From: Candidatus Hydrogenedentota bacterium
Lineage (GTDB): Bacteria > Hydrogenedentota > Hydrogenedentia > Hydrogenedentales > JAGMZX01
Assembly (NCBI GenBank): GCA_029556545.1
Contig: JAKQEQ010000153.1
Coordinates: 1 to 64,000 of the forward strand
Reading direction: 5' to 3'
DNA length: 64,000 nt
Under the pieces are notes generated by a model. It did no database searches. It was not told the DNA's origin and saw nothing but the letters and a program-made list of their open reading frames with translations. Below, in pieces: positions 23,685-59,794 of this stretch. A program made the translations under genes and the position numbers. Position 1 is the first letter of the stretch. Each line of letters begins with the position of its first letter.

Positions 23685-25271
23685 TTATTCTTCGTGGCCG
23701 CGGGATTTCAGTAGCCGGTACTCGAAGCTGTCGACGAGGGCGAGGTAGGAGGCGGTGATGATGTTCTCGGAGACGCCGACGGTATTCCAGAGGTTGCCCT
23801 GGCTGTCGGCGGACTCGATGAGGACGCGGGTCTTGGCGCCGGTGGCCTCTTTGCCGTCGAGGATGCGCACCTTGTAGTCCGCGAGGTGTATGTCGCGCAG
23901 TTCGGGATAACGCCCCTCGAGGGCCTGGCGCAGCGCGTGGTTCAGGGCGTCGACGGGGCCGTTGCCCTCGGCGACGGTGTGATATGCGCGGCCGTCGATG
24001 TCGAGCTTGACGGTGGCCTCGGCGAAATCGTTCCCGGCGGTGAAGCGGTGCCAGACGCCGGCGTGGAAACGCAGGGTCTTGAAGAAGCGGCGGTACTTGC
24101 CGGTGGCGCGGCGGATTTCGAGTTCGAGCGAGGCGTCCGCGCCCTCGAATTCATAGCCTTGGTTTTCGAGGTCCTTGATCCGGGCGAGGATTTTTCGCGT
24201 TTCGGGCTGATCGCGGTCGAGGGGGATGCCGAATTCCTCGGCCTTTTCGAGGAGGCTCGATCTCCCTGACACTTCGCTGACGGCGATTTTGGTGCGGTTG
24301 CCGACGAGGGCCGGGTCCACGTGCTCGTAGCTCGCCTTGAACTTCCGCACGGCGTCGGCGTGCATGCCGCCCTTGTGCGTGAAGGCGTCGCGGCCCACGT
24401 AGGGCGCGAAATCGCGCGGCGTCTGGTTCGCCATCTCGGCGACGAAATGGGAGACGTGCCACAGCCGGGCCAGATGCTCCGGCGTGACCACGTCCAGCCC
24501 CATCTTGATCTGGAGGTTCGGGATAATCGTGCACAAGTTCGCGTTGCCTGTCCGCTCGCCGTAGCCGTTGATCGTGCCCTGGACCTGTTCGGCCCCTTCC
24601 GCGACAGCGGCGAGCGCGTTCGCCACGCCGCAGCCGGAGTCGTTGTGCGTGTGGATGCCGAGCCGGGCGTCGGGCAGGGCGCGCCGCACGGTCGCTGTGA
24701 TCCGGGCCACGTCCGCGGGCAGGCTGCCCCCGTTCGTGTCGCAGAGAATCAGGACCTCTGCGCCCGCCTCGAGGGCGGTGCGCAGCACGTCGAGCGCATA
24801 CGCCTCGTCCTCGCGAAAGGCGTCGAAGAAATGCTCCGCGTCCAGGAACACGCGCCTGTCGTGCTGTCTCAGAAAATCGACGGACTCGCGCACTATCTCG
24901 ATGTTCTTTTCGAGGGGCACGTGGAGCACCTCGCGCGTGTGGAGCGGCGACGTCTTCGCGAAGATGGTGACAATCTCGGTGCCGGCGCCGACGAGCGCGC
25001 GCAGGTTGCTGTCCTCGTCCGTACGGGCCCGGGGATTGCGCGTGCTGCCGAAGGCGGCCATCTTGGCGTGTTTGAGTTCCATATCACGCGCACGCTCGAA
25101 GAGCGCGACCGCCTTCGGGTTCGCGCCCGGCTGGCCGCCCTCGATGTAGGCGACGCCGAGTTCGTCGAGTTCGCGCACCACGCGCAGTTGGTCCTCGGAC
25201 GAAAACTTCACGCCCGGCCCCTGCGCGCCGTCGCGCAGTGTCGTGTCGTAGATTTCAATGCGTCGTGCCAC
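23685..25271 (-). CDS. cimA: Citramalate synthase
   Basis: CimA condenses pyruvate with acetyl-CoA to (R)-citramalate, a threonine-independent route to isoleucine. The 528-residue product has the HMG-lyase-like barrel: IYDTTLRDGAQGPGV, ILCDTNGG, GIHTHNDSGCGVANALAAV and GTINGYGERTGNANL. THKGGMHADAV follows, and a C-terminal LeuA-type regulatory domain runs from about residue 390. Wording and length match CimA rather than LeuA. The start is GTG at 25271, with no clear ribosome site. A telomere-like repeat begins 11 bases upstream. The acetolactate synthase that would continue the pathway is at 59975. Confidence 0.9.
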   Translation of the reverse strand: MARRIEIYDTTLRDGAQGPGVKFSSEDQLRVVRELDELGVAYIEGGQPGANPKAVALFERARDMELKHAKMAAFGSTRNPRARTDEDSNLRALVGAGTEIVTIFAKTSPLHTREVLHVPLEKNIEIVRESVDFLRQHDRRVFLDAEHFFDAFREDEAYALDVLRTALEAGAEVLILCDTNGGSLPADVARITATVRRALPDARLGIHTHNDSGCGVANALAAVAEGAEQVQGTINGYGERTGNANLCTIIPNLQIKMGLDVVTPEHLARLWHVSHFVAEMANQTPRDFAPYVGRDAFTHKGGMHADAVRKFKASYEHVDPALVGNRTKIAVSEVSGRSSLLEKAEEFGIPLDRDQPETRKILARIKDLENQGYEFEGADASLELEIRRATGKYRRFFKTLRFHAGVWHRFTAGNDFAEATVKLDIDGRAYHTVAEGNGPVDALNHALRQALEGRYPELRDIHLADYKVRILDGKEATGAKTRVLIESADSQGNLWNTVGVSENIITASYLALVDSFEYRLLKSRGHEE

Positions 25272-25282
25272 GGTGTGTTTGC

Positions 25283-25312
25283 TTTAGGGTTTAGGGTTTA
25301 GGGTTTAGGGTT
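25283..25312. repeat. Telomere-like (TTTAGGG)4, copy A
   Basis: Four perfect TTTAGGG units (25283-25310) plus TT lie immediately upstream of the cimA start codon. On the coding strand they read (CCCTAAA)4, ending 11 bases before the GTG. The flank TTTGC between repeat and gene is shared with copy B. Confidence 0.95.
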
Positions 25313-25326
25313 CGTCGAGGGCTCGT

Positions 25327-25698
25327 CTAATTATCCGGGGCATCCTCCAGGGATTTTATGAGCGCGTTAAGTAAACGCCCGACGTCCTGGGCGAGTTCCC
25401 ACACCGGTAACGTGTCTTCACGTTGAGCAAAGCCCAGTCGGGTCGCGATGGTCAGATGCGTCTCCATTTCGGCCTTCGAGCCACGGGCGATGGAGAGGTG
25501 GCGCAGGTAGTCGCCGCGATGCACGCGCGCATAGCCCTCCGCGATATTCGCGGGAACGGATACGGCGGCGCGTTGTAGTTGACTCGCGAGCCCGTATCGC
25601 TCCTCCGGCGGAAACCGCCGCGACAGATCATATACGGCAACGACCAAATCCATGGCTTTCCGCCAGACCGTAAGGTCTCGATAGGTCTTGAGCGCCAT
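25327..25698 (-). CDS. Four-helix-bundle protein (S23/23S rRNA-intervening-sequence family)
   Basis: The 123-residue product reads YRDLTVWRKAMDLVVAVYDL, then FPPEERYGLASQLQRAAVSVPANIAEG and later HLSIARGSKAEMETHLTIATRLG. These are the hallmarks of the S23 four-helix-bundle family, first seen in intervening sequences of 23S rRNA genes and structurally similar to Avd of diversity-generating retroelements. Molecular function is unknown. It is followed upstream on its strand by two decayed copies of its C-terminal part, and its ATG is 11 bases from a (TTTAGGG)n repeat. No ribosome site is evident between repeat and ATG. Confidence 0.88.
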   Translation of the reverse strand: MALKTYRDLTVWRKAMDLVVAVYDLSRRFPPEERYGLASQLQRAAVSVPANIAEGYARVHRGDYLRHLSIARGSKAEMETHLTIATRLGFAQREDTLPVWELAQDVGRLLNALIKSLEDAPDN

Positions 25699-25709
25699 GA
25701 CGCCTTTGC

Positions 25710-25737
25710 TTTACGGTTTAGGGTTTAGGGTTTAGGA
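25710..25737. repeat. Telomere-like (TTTAGGG)4, copy B
   Basis: Units read TTTACGG, TTTAGGG, TTTAGGG, TTTAGGA. The array begins exactly 11 bases upstream of the four-helix-bundle start codon, the same distance and flank (TTTGC) as copy A has to cimA. Confidence 0.92.
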
Positions 25738-25889
25738 GGTAAGAGATCAGGGTTCAGGGCTCGTTGTAGAAGCCCGCTCCGCCAGTTCCCGGTGTGTTCC
25801 TCCAGAGATTTCACGAGTCCGTTCAGTAGGCGCCCGACTTTCTGGGCAAGCTCACAAACGAGCCGCGCCTCTTGTTTTCCAGTTAACAT
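25725..25889 (-). pseudogene. C-terminal remnant of a four-helix-bundle gene
   Basis: A 54-codon frame from ATG 25889 includes CELAQKVGRLLNGLVKSLEE, which matches WELAQDVGRLLNALIKSLED at the end of the intact gene at 25327. The N-terminal two thirds are missing. The frame runs on to a stop formed by a TAA within telomere-like copy B. Confidence 0.75.
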
Positions 25890-25907
25890 TGTGATGCTCT
25901 CACGACT

Positions 25908-26028
25908 TCATGACTCCATTCAATAAGGGCGCAATTTCCTGGGGCCAGTCCCCCGACCGGTAACGTGTGTTCGCGTTGGGCGGTACCCAGCCGGGCGACA
26001 ATTGTCAGGCATGCCTCCATTTTCAGCC
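25908..26028 (-). pseudogene. Frameshifted remnant of a second four-helix-bundle copy
   Basis: One frame gives MEACLTIVARLGTAQREHTLPV, matching METHLTIATRLGFAQREDTLPV of the intact gene. The match then moves to another frame as DWPQEIAPLLNGVMKS and a stop. It is therefore a C-terminal fragment with a frameshift, clearly diverged from the neighbouring fragment. Confidence 0.75.
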
Positions 26029-26066
26029 AACTAACCGCAGGCCTGTTTCCGAGTTCGATACATTTT

Positions 26067-26090
26067 CAACCCTAGACCCTAAACCCTATT
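26067..26090. repeat. Telomere-like repeat, copy C, inverted
   Basis: ACCCTAGACCCTAAACCCTA is in opposite orientation to copies A and B. With copy B it brackets the two decayed four-helix-bundle fragments. The last codons and stop of the phosphoglycerate mutase gene lie inside it. Confidence 0.85.
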
Positions 26091-27304
26091 CTGTCCTCCC
26101 GGAATAACCGCTCCGTCAACTGATAGCCCTCGCGCAGTTCGATGCCCGTCCGCGCCGCTTCCTTCTCCGAATACGCCGCGACGCCAATCGGCTCCACGCC
26201 CGCGCCGCACAGGGCGAAGGGCGTCGCATCGCCGTAATGGCCCTTGGTGCTCAGCAGCGTGAAATGGTCCGGCGCCACGAGCAGCCGGGCCTCGCCGGTG
26301 CGCTCGACATAATTGAGGAACGGGGCCACGACCTTCGCATCGAAGTCCTCGATGGCCTGAATCTTCAGGTCGGCCCTGCCCTGGTGCGCGGCCTCGTCCG
26401 GCGCCTCGACATGTACATACACGAAGTCATGCCTACTGAGCGCGTCCATCGCCGCGGCGACCTTGCCGGCGTAATTGGTATCGATCCACCCGGTCGCGCC
26501 GGGCACGTCGATGACCTCGAGTCCAGCCAGCACGCCGAGCCCTTTCACCAGGTCGACCGCCGAAACCACCGCGCCGGAGACGCCAAATTTCTCGCGGTAG
26601 GGGGCCATCGCGGGCGTGGTGCCCTGACCCCACAGCCACGCGGAGGTCGCGGTAAGCTTGCCAGCGGCGGCGCGGCGCGCGTTCACCTCGTGGCCAGCCA
26701 GGACGCCCTGGGACTGTCGCATGATCTCGGCGACGCAACTGGCCGCCGGACCCTGGGGCCAGTAGGCCTGGTGCGGCTGGTCCATGATGTTGTGCGGCGG
26801 CGTACAGTCCGTGGCCACAAGGTCCTCGACGCTCGCGCCGGGCCCGGCGGTCACCACCGCGAGGTGGCGGTACGAGACGCCGGGATGAAAGCGCACGGAG
26901 CCGGCCCCGGACAAGGCGGCATCCAGCGACGCGATAATCGCCGCGCCCTCTTCGCTTGTGATATGGCCCGCGGTAAAGTCGCGCATGACGCCATCTTCGA
27001 GGGTCACCAGATTGCAGCGGAACGCGACCTGGTCCGCGGCCAGCGAAATGCGGCGGCTTGCGGCCTCGATGGGCGCCCGGCCACAAAAGGTCGTGCGCGG
27101 GTCGTAGCCGAACAGGGACAGGTTGCCGATCTCGCTGCCCGCGGGCATGCCTTCGGGAATCGGCCAGTACATTCCGACGACGCCGTGGCGCGCCACGGCG
27201 TCCAGGGCGGGGATGTGCGCCGCTTCGAGGGGCGTGCGGTCGCCCAGCGCCGGAACAGGTAGATCGGCCATGCCGTCGCCGACAAGAATGATATACTTCA
27301 TCAT
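26072..27304 (-). CDS. apgM: Cofactor-independent phosphoglycerate mutase, archaeal type
   Basis: This alkaline-phosphatase-superfamily enzyme interconverts 2- and 3-phosphoglycerate. The 410-residue product has YIILVGDGMADLP, GSEIGNLSLFGYDP with the catalytic Ser region, HVEAPDEAAHQG and LLVAPDHFTLLSTKGHYGD, all typical of the archaeal-type (ApgM) enzyme. An older annotation for such proteins is 'homoserine kinase', which is less likely. The final residues GFRV and the stop codon are written in the telomere-like repeat GGGTTTAGGGTCTAG, so the gene's original C-terminus may have been replaced. It is divergent from rsmG. Confidence 0.88.
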   Translation of the reverse strand: MMKYIILVGDGMADLPVPALGDRTPLEAAHIPALDAVARHGVVGMYWPIPEGMPAGSEIGNLSLFGYDPRTTFCGRAPIEAASRRISLAADQVAFRCNLVTLEDGVMRDFTAGHITSEEGAAIIASLDAALSGAGSVRFHPGVSYRHLAVVTAGPGASVEDLVATDCTPPHNIMDQPHQAYWPQGPAASCVAEIMRQSQGVLAGHEVNARRAAAGKLTATSAWLWGQGTTPAMAPYREKFGVSGAVVSAVDLVKGLGVLAGLEVIDVPGATGWIDTNYAGKVAAAMDALSRHDFVYVHVEAPDEAAHQGRADLKIQAIEDFDAKVVAPFLNYVERTGEARLLVAPDHFTLLSTKGHYGDATPFALCGAGVEPIGVAAYSEKEAARTGIELREGYQLTERLFREDRIGFRV

Positions 27305-41120: not shown

Positions 41121-41238
41121 CGCCGCGTTATCTCCTGCCATTGCGCCGCGCCCGCATACGCGCGGCCCGCACGAAGGTAATACTACAGCGGGGGCCTTGG
41201 GTTCCACATGCGCGCCCAGCCGCTCGCTCCGGAGGAGA

Positions 41239-41262
41239 GGGTTTAGGGTTTAGGGTTTAGGG
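41239..41262. repeat. Telomere-like (GGGTTTA)n, copy D
   Basis: GGGTTTAGGGTTTAGGG and one further unit lie between the small membrane-protein gene and the NagB-like gene, about 14 kb from copies A-C. Orientation is the same as copies A and B. The neighbouring sequence shows no four-helix-bundle remnant that I could find. Confidence 0.92.
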
Positions 41263-41394
41263 TGACGGTTGGTAGCTGGAGCCCTTCAATCGGGGTTGTG
41301 GCGCGGTTCCTGCGTTCGTCACGCGCGGCGCAGTCCGGCAAAGGCAGAGAGGGTTGCGCACTATCGAGGCAGGCGCCGCGCGGTTCGCGGTGCG

Positions 41395-57634: not shown

Positions 57635-59794
57635 ATGAGTAACGAACAACAGGACGTGCAAAGCACACAACCGGCTGCGGCCGCCGCGGCGACCGATTTA
57701 GCCAACACCCTCGCGTACGACGATGATGAGGCCCTCGGCCTCGAGACCGAATCCCTTTCCATGGCGGAAATGGAAGCGCTGTACGATGAGACCATGCGCA
57801 ACTTCAGGGAAGGCGAGGTGGTCAGGGGCAGCATCGTCGAGATCACCGACGACCGCGTGCTTGTGGACATCGGCTACAAGAGCGAAGGGGTCGTCAGCAT
57901 TACGGAGTTTCCGCCGGAAGCAGAGATCAAGCCGGGCGACACCTTCGATTTCTACATCGACGAACCGGAAGACGAGGAGGGGTTGCCCGTCCTCTCGAAG
58001 ATGAAGGCGGACCGGATCAAGAACTGGGAGAAGGTCCAGGCGGTGTACGAGGATGACGGCATCATCGAGGGCGTGATCACGCGACGGGTCAAGGGCGGCC
58101 TGAAGGTGGATATCGGCATCGACGCGTTTATGCCGGCCAGCCAGCTTACGTTCCGTCCGACGGGCGACCTCGAGCGTTACATCGGCCAGAAGATGGAGTT
58201 CAAGATCATCAAGCTGACGAAGCGCAGGCGGAATGTGGTAGTCAGCCGCCGCAAGCTCTTGGAGGAGCAGCGCGCGGGCGAGAAGAGCCGCCTGCTGGAA
58301 ACGATTCACGTGGGGCAGATTCTCCCCGGCGAGATCAAGAATATCACGGACTTCGGCGCCTTCGTGGACGTGGGCGGCATCGACGGGCTGTTGCACGTGA
58401 CGGACATGAGCTGGGGCCGCGTGAAACATCCGTCCCAGGTCGTCCAGGTGGGTCAACGGATCGAGGTCATGGTGCTCAGTTTCGACCCGCAGTCGGAGCG
58501 CATCAGCCTCGGCCTCAAACAGAAGAGCGAGAACCCGTGGAAGACCGCCGCGGAGCGGTATCCGGTCGGCAACGTCGTGCACGGGCGTGTGGTCAGCATG
58601 ACGGACTACGGCGCGTTTGTGCAGTTGGAGGACGGCATCGAGGGCATGGTGCACGTGAGCGAGATGAGCTGGACGCGGCGCGTGCGGCACCCGAACGAGA
58701 TGCTCAGCATCGATGACGAAGTGCCGGTCATGATCCTCAGCGTCGACGCCGATGCGGAGAAGATCGCGTTGGGCATCAAGCAGACGCAGCCGAACCCCTG
58801 GCGTGAGATCGGGCAGAAATATCCGGTCGGATCGATCGTGAAGGGCACGGTGCGCAACATGACGGACTACGGCGCGTTCGTGCAGCTCGAAGAGGGCATC
58901 GATGGGCTCCTGCACGTCAGCGACATGTCCTGGACGAAGAAAGTGAACCATCCGTCCGAGCTGATCGAGCGGAACCAGGAACTCGAAGTCAAGGTGCTCA
59001 GCATCGACCCCGAGAACGAGAAGATCAGCGTCGGGCTGAAGCAGCTTATGGAAGACCCGTGGCTCGCGGTGGTGCAAGGATTGCCGATCGGGAGTCACGT
59101 CGAGGTCGAGATCGCGAAGCTCGTCAGCTTCGGCGCGTTTGCGCGGCTGGACAACGGCATCGAGGGGCTGATTCACGTGAGTGAACTGTCGACCGAGCGG
59201 GTGCAGAAACCCGAGGAGGCGGTGGCGGTCGGCGACAAATTGATGGCGAAAGTGATCAGCATCGATCCGGTCGAACGCAAGATCGGCCTGAGCGTGCGGG
59301 AATATCAGCGCGATCAGGATCGGCAGCTTCAGGATGACTATCGCGAGGGCGCGGAAGGCGAGCGCGTGGACGTGGCCGCGGCGATGCGCGGCGCCGTGCC
59401 CGCCAACATGATCCAGGCAGGCCGCAGCCTCGCCGACGTGGCCACGGAACTCATGGCCGCCGTCGCGCGCGGCACCGAAGCCGCCCGCCAGGAACAGGCG
59501 GCGGCAGCGGCGGCGGAAGCCGCGGAGGCCGCGGAGGCGGAAGCCGTGGAGGCCGCGCCCGCGGAAGCTGCGGAGGCCGCGCCCGCGGAAGCCGTGGAGC
59601 CCGCGGCGGCGGAAGCCGTGGAGCCCGTGCCGACAGAGCCGGAGCCCGCGCGTGCCGAAGCGGAAGCCGGGCCGAGCGCGCCTGTGGAGGACGCAGCCGA
59701 AGAGGTCACGGCGCCCGCCGCCGAAGACGCCTCTTCGGAGTCGGTAGTACGGACGCCGGAGGAAGATGCGGCGTCAGACTCGACTAACGCCTGA
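57635..59794 (+). CDS. rpsA: 30S ribosomal protein S1
   Basis: S1 binds mRNA at the small subunit. The 719-residue product has six S1 RNA-binding repeats, each with wording such as VDIGYKSEGVVS, TDFGAFVDVGGIDGLLHVTDMSW and TDYGAFVQLEDGIEGMVHVSEMSW. A tail of ~120 residues, dominated by Ala, Glu and Pro (AAEAAEAEAVEAAPAEAAEA and onward), is unusual beside the standard ~560-residue protein. The ATG at 57635 follows AAAGGAGA by 12 bases; an in-frame ATG at 57608 lies before that site and is rejected. It has its own promoter and terminator. Confidence 0.94.
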   Translation: MSNEQQDVQSTQPAAAAAATDLANTLAYDDDEALGLETESLSMAEMEALYDETMRNFREGEVVRGSIVEITDDRVLVDIGYKSEGVVSITEFPPEAEIKPGDTFDFYIDEPEDEEGLPVLSKMKADRIKNWEKVQAVYEDDGIIEGVITRRVKGGLKVDIGIDAFMPASQLTFRPTGDLERYIGQKMEFKIIKLTKRRRNVVVSRRKLLEEQRAGEKSRLLETIHVGQILPGEIKNITDFGAFVDVGGIDGLLHVTDMSWGRVKHPSQVVQVGQRIEVMVLSFDPQSERISLGLKQKSENPWKTAAERYPVGNVVHGRVVSMTDYGAFVQLEDGIEGMVHVSEMSWTRRVRHPNEMLSIDDEVPVMILSVDADAEKIALGIKQTQPNPWREIGQKYPVGSIVKGTVRNMTDYGAFVQLEEGIDGLLHVSDMSWTKKVNHPSELIERNQELEVKVLSIDPENEKISVGLKQLMEDPWLAVVQGLPIGSHVEVEIAKLVSFGAFARLDNGIEGLIHVSELSTERVQKPEEAVAVGDKLMAKVISIDPVERKIGLSVREYQRDQDRQLQDDYREGAEGERVDVAAAMRGAVPANMIQAGRSLADVATELMAAVARGTEAARQEQAAAAAAEAAEAAEAEAVEAAPAEAAEAAPAEAVEPAAAEAVEPVPTEPEPARAEAEAGPSAPVEDAAEEVTAPAAEDASSESVVRTPEEDAASDSTNA

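Follow-up and report, generated by a model that had tools for sequence, protein, structure and literature searches.

The gap between the genes apgM and cimA of Candidatus Hydrogenedentota bacterium (GenBank assembly GCA_029556545.1) holds a block which, with a probability of about 0.72, is an inserted element in which an S23-family gene occupies a hairpin loop, the arms of the hairpin being made of tandem heptamers or sometimes octamers. Such an element would be the intercistronic counterpart of the intervening sequences (IVS) of 23S rRNA. The block lies in contig JAKQEQ010000153.1, positions 1 to 64,000 of which were analysed and are called here the window. Element boundaries, inverted arms, intercistronic sites, units specific to each locus, empty and filled versions of a site, and array-only versions are all observed directly. 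The window element is taken to run from array C to array A and to enclose the decayed remains of two older S23 copies, which stop at array B, an inner 3' arm:

26068-26088, minus strand: array C, the 5' arm (Tandem Repeats Finder, 85%), inverted with respect to A and B; TTTAGGG on the S23 sense strand
25943-26023, minus strand: decayed S23 piece 1, residues 77-103 (tblastn, 67% identity, E 3e-5)
25785-25877, minus strand: decayed S23 piece 2, residues 93-123 (tblastn, 55% identity, E 5e-5)
25710-25736, minus strand: array B, the inner 3' arm (Tandem Repeats Finder, 3.9 copies, 95%); CCCTAAA on the S23 sense strand
25327-25698, minus strand: S23 / 23S_rRNA_IVP four-helix-bundle gene, 123 aa (PF05635, E 1.1e-34; TIGR02436, E 6.8e-34)
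25283-25312, minus strand: array A, the 3' arm (Tandem Repeats Finder, 4.3 copies, 100%); four CCCTAAA on the S23 sense strand
26072-27304, minus strand: upstream neighbour, apgM-like phosphoglycerate mutase (NF003242, E 4.5e-151)
23685-25271, minus strand: downstream neighbour, cimA, citramalate synthase (TIGR00977, E 6e-209)
41238-41263, plus strand: solo intergenic TTTAGGG array with no adjoining S23 gene (Tandem Repeats Finder, 3.7 copies)

Along the S23 sense strand come, in this order, apgM, array C, the two decayed S23 pieces, array B followed by GCAAA, the intact S23 gene, array A, GCAAACACACC and the GTG of cimA. The C-terminal residues of apgM (..IGFRV stop) are encoded within array C. 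The two decayed pieces overlap in residues 93-103 and are therefore the remains of two copies. The duplex formed by C and A reaches -34.3 kcal/mol, where shuffled arms give -12.6 +/- 2.9, and the minimum-energy fold of the region is closed by this C:A stem. B pairs with C at -30.2 kcal/mol. C and A are accordingly regarded as the arms, and B as an inner 3' arm that remains from a previous copy. The sequence TTTAGGGTTTAGGG has 6 matches in the window and none in 100 dinucleotide shuffles. The nearest solved structures to the S23 protein in the PDB are 2gsc (E 1.5e-27) and 2rld.

A preliminary description of this DNA had reported three TTTAGGG arrays around an intact S23 gene and a fourth one further along, and Tandem Repeats Finder and profile matches recover all of them; the two decayed C-terminal copies that it had proposed are likewise found by tblastn. 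It had also stressed that A and B share the same distance to a start codon. Indeed, array A ends 11 bases before the cimA GTG (25271) and array B 11 bases before the S23 ATG (25698), both with the flank TTTGC, which reads as GCAAA after each array on the S23 sense strand. This spacing stands as an observation and not as the key feature, the inverted pair C/A being what matters instead.

A survey was carried out on 80 S23 relatives from many phyla, collected by protein similarity, and on a second set found with a hidden Markov model (HMM). Merging the loci with similar surroundings and adding the HMM set gave 72 sites. Perfect period-7 runs amount to 40 per 10 kb at up to 150 nt from the S23 gene, against 1.5-1.8 per 10 kb at 1-3 kb. 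A run of this kind is present in either 150-nt flank at 62% of the S23 loci and in 0.9% of 431 control flanks situated at least 900 nt away, a contrast that reflects in part intergenic position, as the control flanks are mostly coding. The same test gave 14% for period 8 and 0-3% for periods 3-6 and 9-12. Among the de-duplicated sites, an array within 150 nt has period 7 in 44 cases out of 72, period 8 in four, period 10 in one, and periods 4, 5, 6 or 9 in none. The HMM-found set, which is independent of similarity to the window, has period-7 arrays at 17 of its 29 sites. An assembly artefact is made less likely by NZ_CP034448.1, a complete genome with the same architecture (locus L122).

Octamer-armed versions (e.g. 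TAGGGCAG) occur at loci L091, L103, L111, L112, L121, L130, L141, L147 and L297, so that the period is 7 or 8 and not divisible by three. A unit bearing a stop codon consequently closes all three reading frames, as shuffled units quite often do too. Of 50 sense units, 27 contain stop codons, mostly TAG, against an expectation of 19.4 from shuffling the units; as high a count arose in 16 of 2000 shuffles. At two loci, L221 (G075:C3:224283-224597) and L198 (G033:C69), the S23 matches lie within long open frames of 683 and 327 aa, and the heptamers there may lack sense stops.

The arms of these elements were recognized by three or more 9-mers common to the upstream flank and to the reverse-complemented downstream flank. 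Inverted flanks were found in this way at 44 of the 72 sites, against a mean of 1.9 and a maximum of 6 when flanks were swapped between sites; direct sharing of 9-mers was seen at five. The two arms of one site usually match in unit, and the unit of the 5' arm is the G-rich one in 44 unit-site pairs against 6. The unit itself changes from site to site, with 44 different upstream units among the 50 unit-site pairs, and even within one genome, G060, where different S23 sites carry TAGGCAG and GAATAGC. Both neighbouring genes, called by amino-acid-composition scoring, lie on the S23 strand at 40 of 67 de-duplicated sites and at 21 of the 28 confident ones.

The present genome (G000; 6.1 Mb, 96% complete) illustrates the same principle. 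Four of its S23 genes exceed the Pfam cut-off, and each of them adjoins a period-7 array with a unit of its own:

C192 (window): TTTAGGG
C140: TAGGGAC/TAGGGAT, with inverted arm CCCTGGT/CCCTAGT
C18: GAGTGCG/GAATGCG, with a decayed inverted arm
C42: AAATTCC/AAATCTC, on one side only

The association of TTTAGGG with S23 genes, which the preliminary description proposed to check genome-wide, thus fails for the unit, S23 being present at one of about 12 TTTAGGG loci, and holds for the period. The unit was rejected as the key to the association in favor of the period. A tblastn search of the window S23 protein against the solo-array locus (L026, 41238) returned chance-level matches alone (E at least 4). 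At another S23-free locus, L003 (G000:C33), inverted TTTAGGG arrays surround a stretch of about 240 bases made up of further short repeats with G/C skew, perhaps a decayed element.

A direct view of such an insertion comes from the gap between the acyl-CoA dehydrogenase gene and mmsB, compared across 60 genomes of the Mesorhizobium group. This gap is empty in 39 of them, with 19-45 nt comprising a stop codon and the ribosome-binding region, and in about a dozen it is occupied by an S23 element, about 430-510 nt long, with (TAGGCAG)n at one end and (CTGCCTA)n at the other. Five others (L242, L255, L295, L299 and L300) contain array-only hairpins made of other units, that of L242 having almost no loop, and L297 has octamers and a gap of 310, which could not accommodate a complete S23 gene and its arms. 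The TAG of the array is often the stop codon of the upstream gene, and the downstream arm stops just before the ribosome-binding site. The S23 proteins of this gap form one clade (support 0.98), which indicates that the insertion was inherited there. The repeat-bounded, duplicated S23 cassette with terminal arrays envisaged in the preliminary description is borne out by the occurrence of this operon gap in both empty and filled form. Its further proposal, that the arrays are recombination or mobilization junctions, is retained insofar as they mark the ends of the element; recombination between arrays as a route of movement is unsupported. S23 elements are also found between nuoC and nuoD, encoding subunits of respiratory complex I, in several genera of Rhizobiales (L084, L085, L087, L126, L127, L143 and L220). 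The tree suggests, with weak support for this point, that a second S23 lineage was inserted independently in this gap (L220).

In the order to which the present bacterium belongs, 28 genomes including this one have apgM next to cimA, with a median gap of 86 nt. The gap measures -4 to 227 nt in 26 of them, 543 in one and 800 here. With a test demanding 13 matches out of 14, no period-7 array was detected in the gap of the other 27 genomes, and the 227-nt gap of G001 has no significant similarity to the window block. The 543-nt gap of G034 (L155) contains a hairpin insert with AAAGGAC-like arms and shared inverted 9-mers, in which neither S23 nor a period-7 array was found.

The closest known system is the IVS of Coxiella burnetii 23S rRNA, a stem-loop cut by RNase III, with the S23 protein (S23p) encoded in the loop and a number of GACAGAT heptamers, variable between strains, beside the open reading frame (PMC4990558). 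The likeness extends to the complementary ends and to the size, about 430-510 nt for the elements described here against 428-444 for the Coxiella IVS (PMC4990558). The window element has the complementary ends and encodes S23p, which is optional in IVS. It differs in its position, between apgM and cimA rather than in a helix of 23S rRNA, and in its arms, largely made of tandem heptamers. The IVS is excised by RNase III.

The element lies between two co-directional genes of an operon, immediately behind the upstream stop and immediately ahead of the downstream ribosome-binding region. Its arms would pair in the operon transcript, and a double-strand RNase such as RNase III could cut the stem, as happens in IVS. 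Both neighbours would stay expressed, the 5' arm being often stop-bearing and the downstream ribosome-binding site being kept. The S23 protein might perhaps take part in making or spreading the arms.

Several points weigh against this interpretation. The fold of the window element improves only modestly on that of shuffled sequences (z -1.7, 20 shuffles). In a G-U wobble test, 19 arm substitutions keep pairing and 20 break it, with no bias toward G-U preservation, so that the test gives no evidence of selection on RNA pairing, and the inverted arms could have a DNA-level origin. No clear period-7 array accompanies S23 at 28 of the 72 sites, some of which are decayed and some octameric. TTTAGGG loci of this genome are mostly devoid of S23, the window locus being the sole exception. 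Finally, no mobility enzyme was identified by a search that covered PF00078.

The null G-U result speaks for a DNA-level palindrome mechanism, by which fold-back synthesis or inverted duplication would make the arms and RNA pairing would play no part. The agreement of the arms at any one site, combined with their divergence from site to site, also fits such a mechanism. The constant orientation of the G-rich arm with respect to S23 transcription, together with the preference for the sense strand of operons, points instead to transcripts, and the precedent of IVS is one of RNA processing (PMC4990558). This explanation is to be taken seriously, even if it is doubtful.

It is improbable that the arrays are general intergenic repeats made by slippage, S23 genes merely tolerating the same permissive gaps. 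S23-free arrays are admittedly common in this genome, and heptanucleotide repeats are reportedly the most abundant long simple repeats of most bacterial genomes (PMC4679880). Slippage is nevertheless hard to reconcile with the enrichment within 150 nt (61% vs 0.9%, a ratio owed in part to intergenic position as the control is mostly coding), with inverted arm pairing at the same locus (44 vs 1.9 expected) and with empty versions of the same gap that lack arrays. Arrays are moreover concentrated in S23-positive relatives: TAGGG-type arrays are present in 17 of 34 of these against 2 of 26 S23-negative ones (304 vs 5 matches; Fisher p 6e-4, uncorrected for kinship). The only congener searched, G001, has neither S23 nor TAGGG-type arrays. 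In G027, 89 TAGGG-type matches coexist with a single S23 gene, at a contig edge, and many of its arrays are hence S23-free.

An even less probable explanation is that of a retroelement in which S23 would be an Avd-like partner of a reverse transcriptase acting in trans. Avd, a component of diversity-generating retroelements, is a homologous four-helix-bundle protein (PMC10053308), and weak bAvd and DivGenRetAVD matches are obtained with S23. These retroelements have a reverse transcriptase in the genome, whereas PF00078 gave 0 matches here (E 1e-10, 96% complete genome) and none in the array-rich G016. The enzyme was accordingly rejected as a required partner, even though it may have been lost after the insertions or may lie within the missing 4% of the genome. 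It is very improbable that the TTTAGGG arrays act through G-quadruplex (G4) folding, for although array A has four GGG runs and Xanthomonas and Nostoc are known to possess G4 heptamers (PMC4692102), several sites with the same architecture use the GGG-free units AGGCAGT, AATAGCG, AATCGTG and AAGTGAG.

Two classifications were discarded. The preliminary description had called the arrays telomere-like; telomere repeats are terminal, with one unit per genome, and here the arrays are contig-internal and intergenic, with four units at four S23 genes and a unit that changes at each site, so that the likeness is accidental. A classical insertion sequence or miniature inverted-repeat transposable element (MITE) has inverted repeats conserved between copies, against 44 units in 50 unit-site pairs here. 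REPIN/RAYT and MITE elements are short intergenic inverted structures with non-autonomous copies. In the S23 elements, arm sequence varies between copies, and period, polarity and complementarity within a site alone are conserved. Cyanobacterial short tandemly repeated repetitive (STRR) sequences are intergenic period-7 repeats with lineage-specific units. The same properties characterize the TAACTGA heptamers of Beggiatoaceae (PMC4679880) and the G-quadruplex heptamers of Xanthomonas and Nostoc (PMC4692102), and in neither paper did term searches bring up S23 or four-helix genes.

Bacterial heptamer repeats on the one hand, and the S23 genes of rRNA IVS on the other, are already known. In the searchable literature, which covers few subscription papers and preprints, no paper was found that connects heptamer arrays with S23 genes located outside rRNA. 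What appears to be new is this link, with its intercistronic sites, inverted arms, site-specific units and empty sites. It would join three subjects hitherto dealt with separately: the intervening sequences of rRNA, the S23/Avd-like proteins, whose function is unknown, and the frequency with which long simple repeats in bacteria have period 7, itself a puzzle. S23 proteins thereby gain a concrete genomic partner for testing, their own arms, and culturable carriers with natural empty-site controls are available in the Mesorhizobium mmsB gap, the Rhizobiales nuoC-nuoD gap and cyanobacteria. More speculatively, S23 elements might constitute an undescribed class of mobile elements whose protein helps to build heptamer arms afresh at each insertion site, much of the abundance of bacterial heptanucleotide repeats being then the footprint of S23 elements and of their S23-free derivatives; this extension is tentative and rather unlikely.

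The window contains other long tandem repeats at 195-407 and 59498-59631 (periods 6/12/18 and 24/72), which are probably coding.
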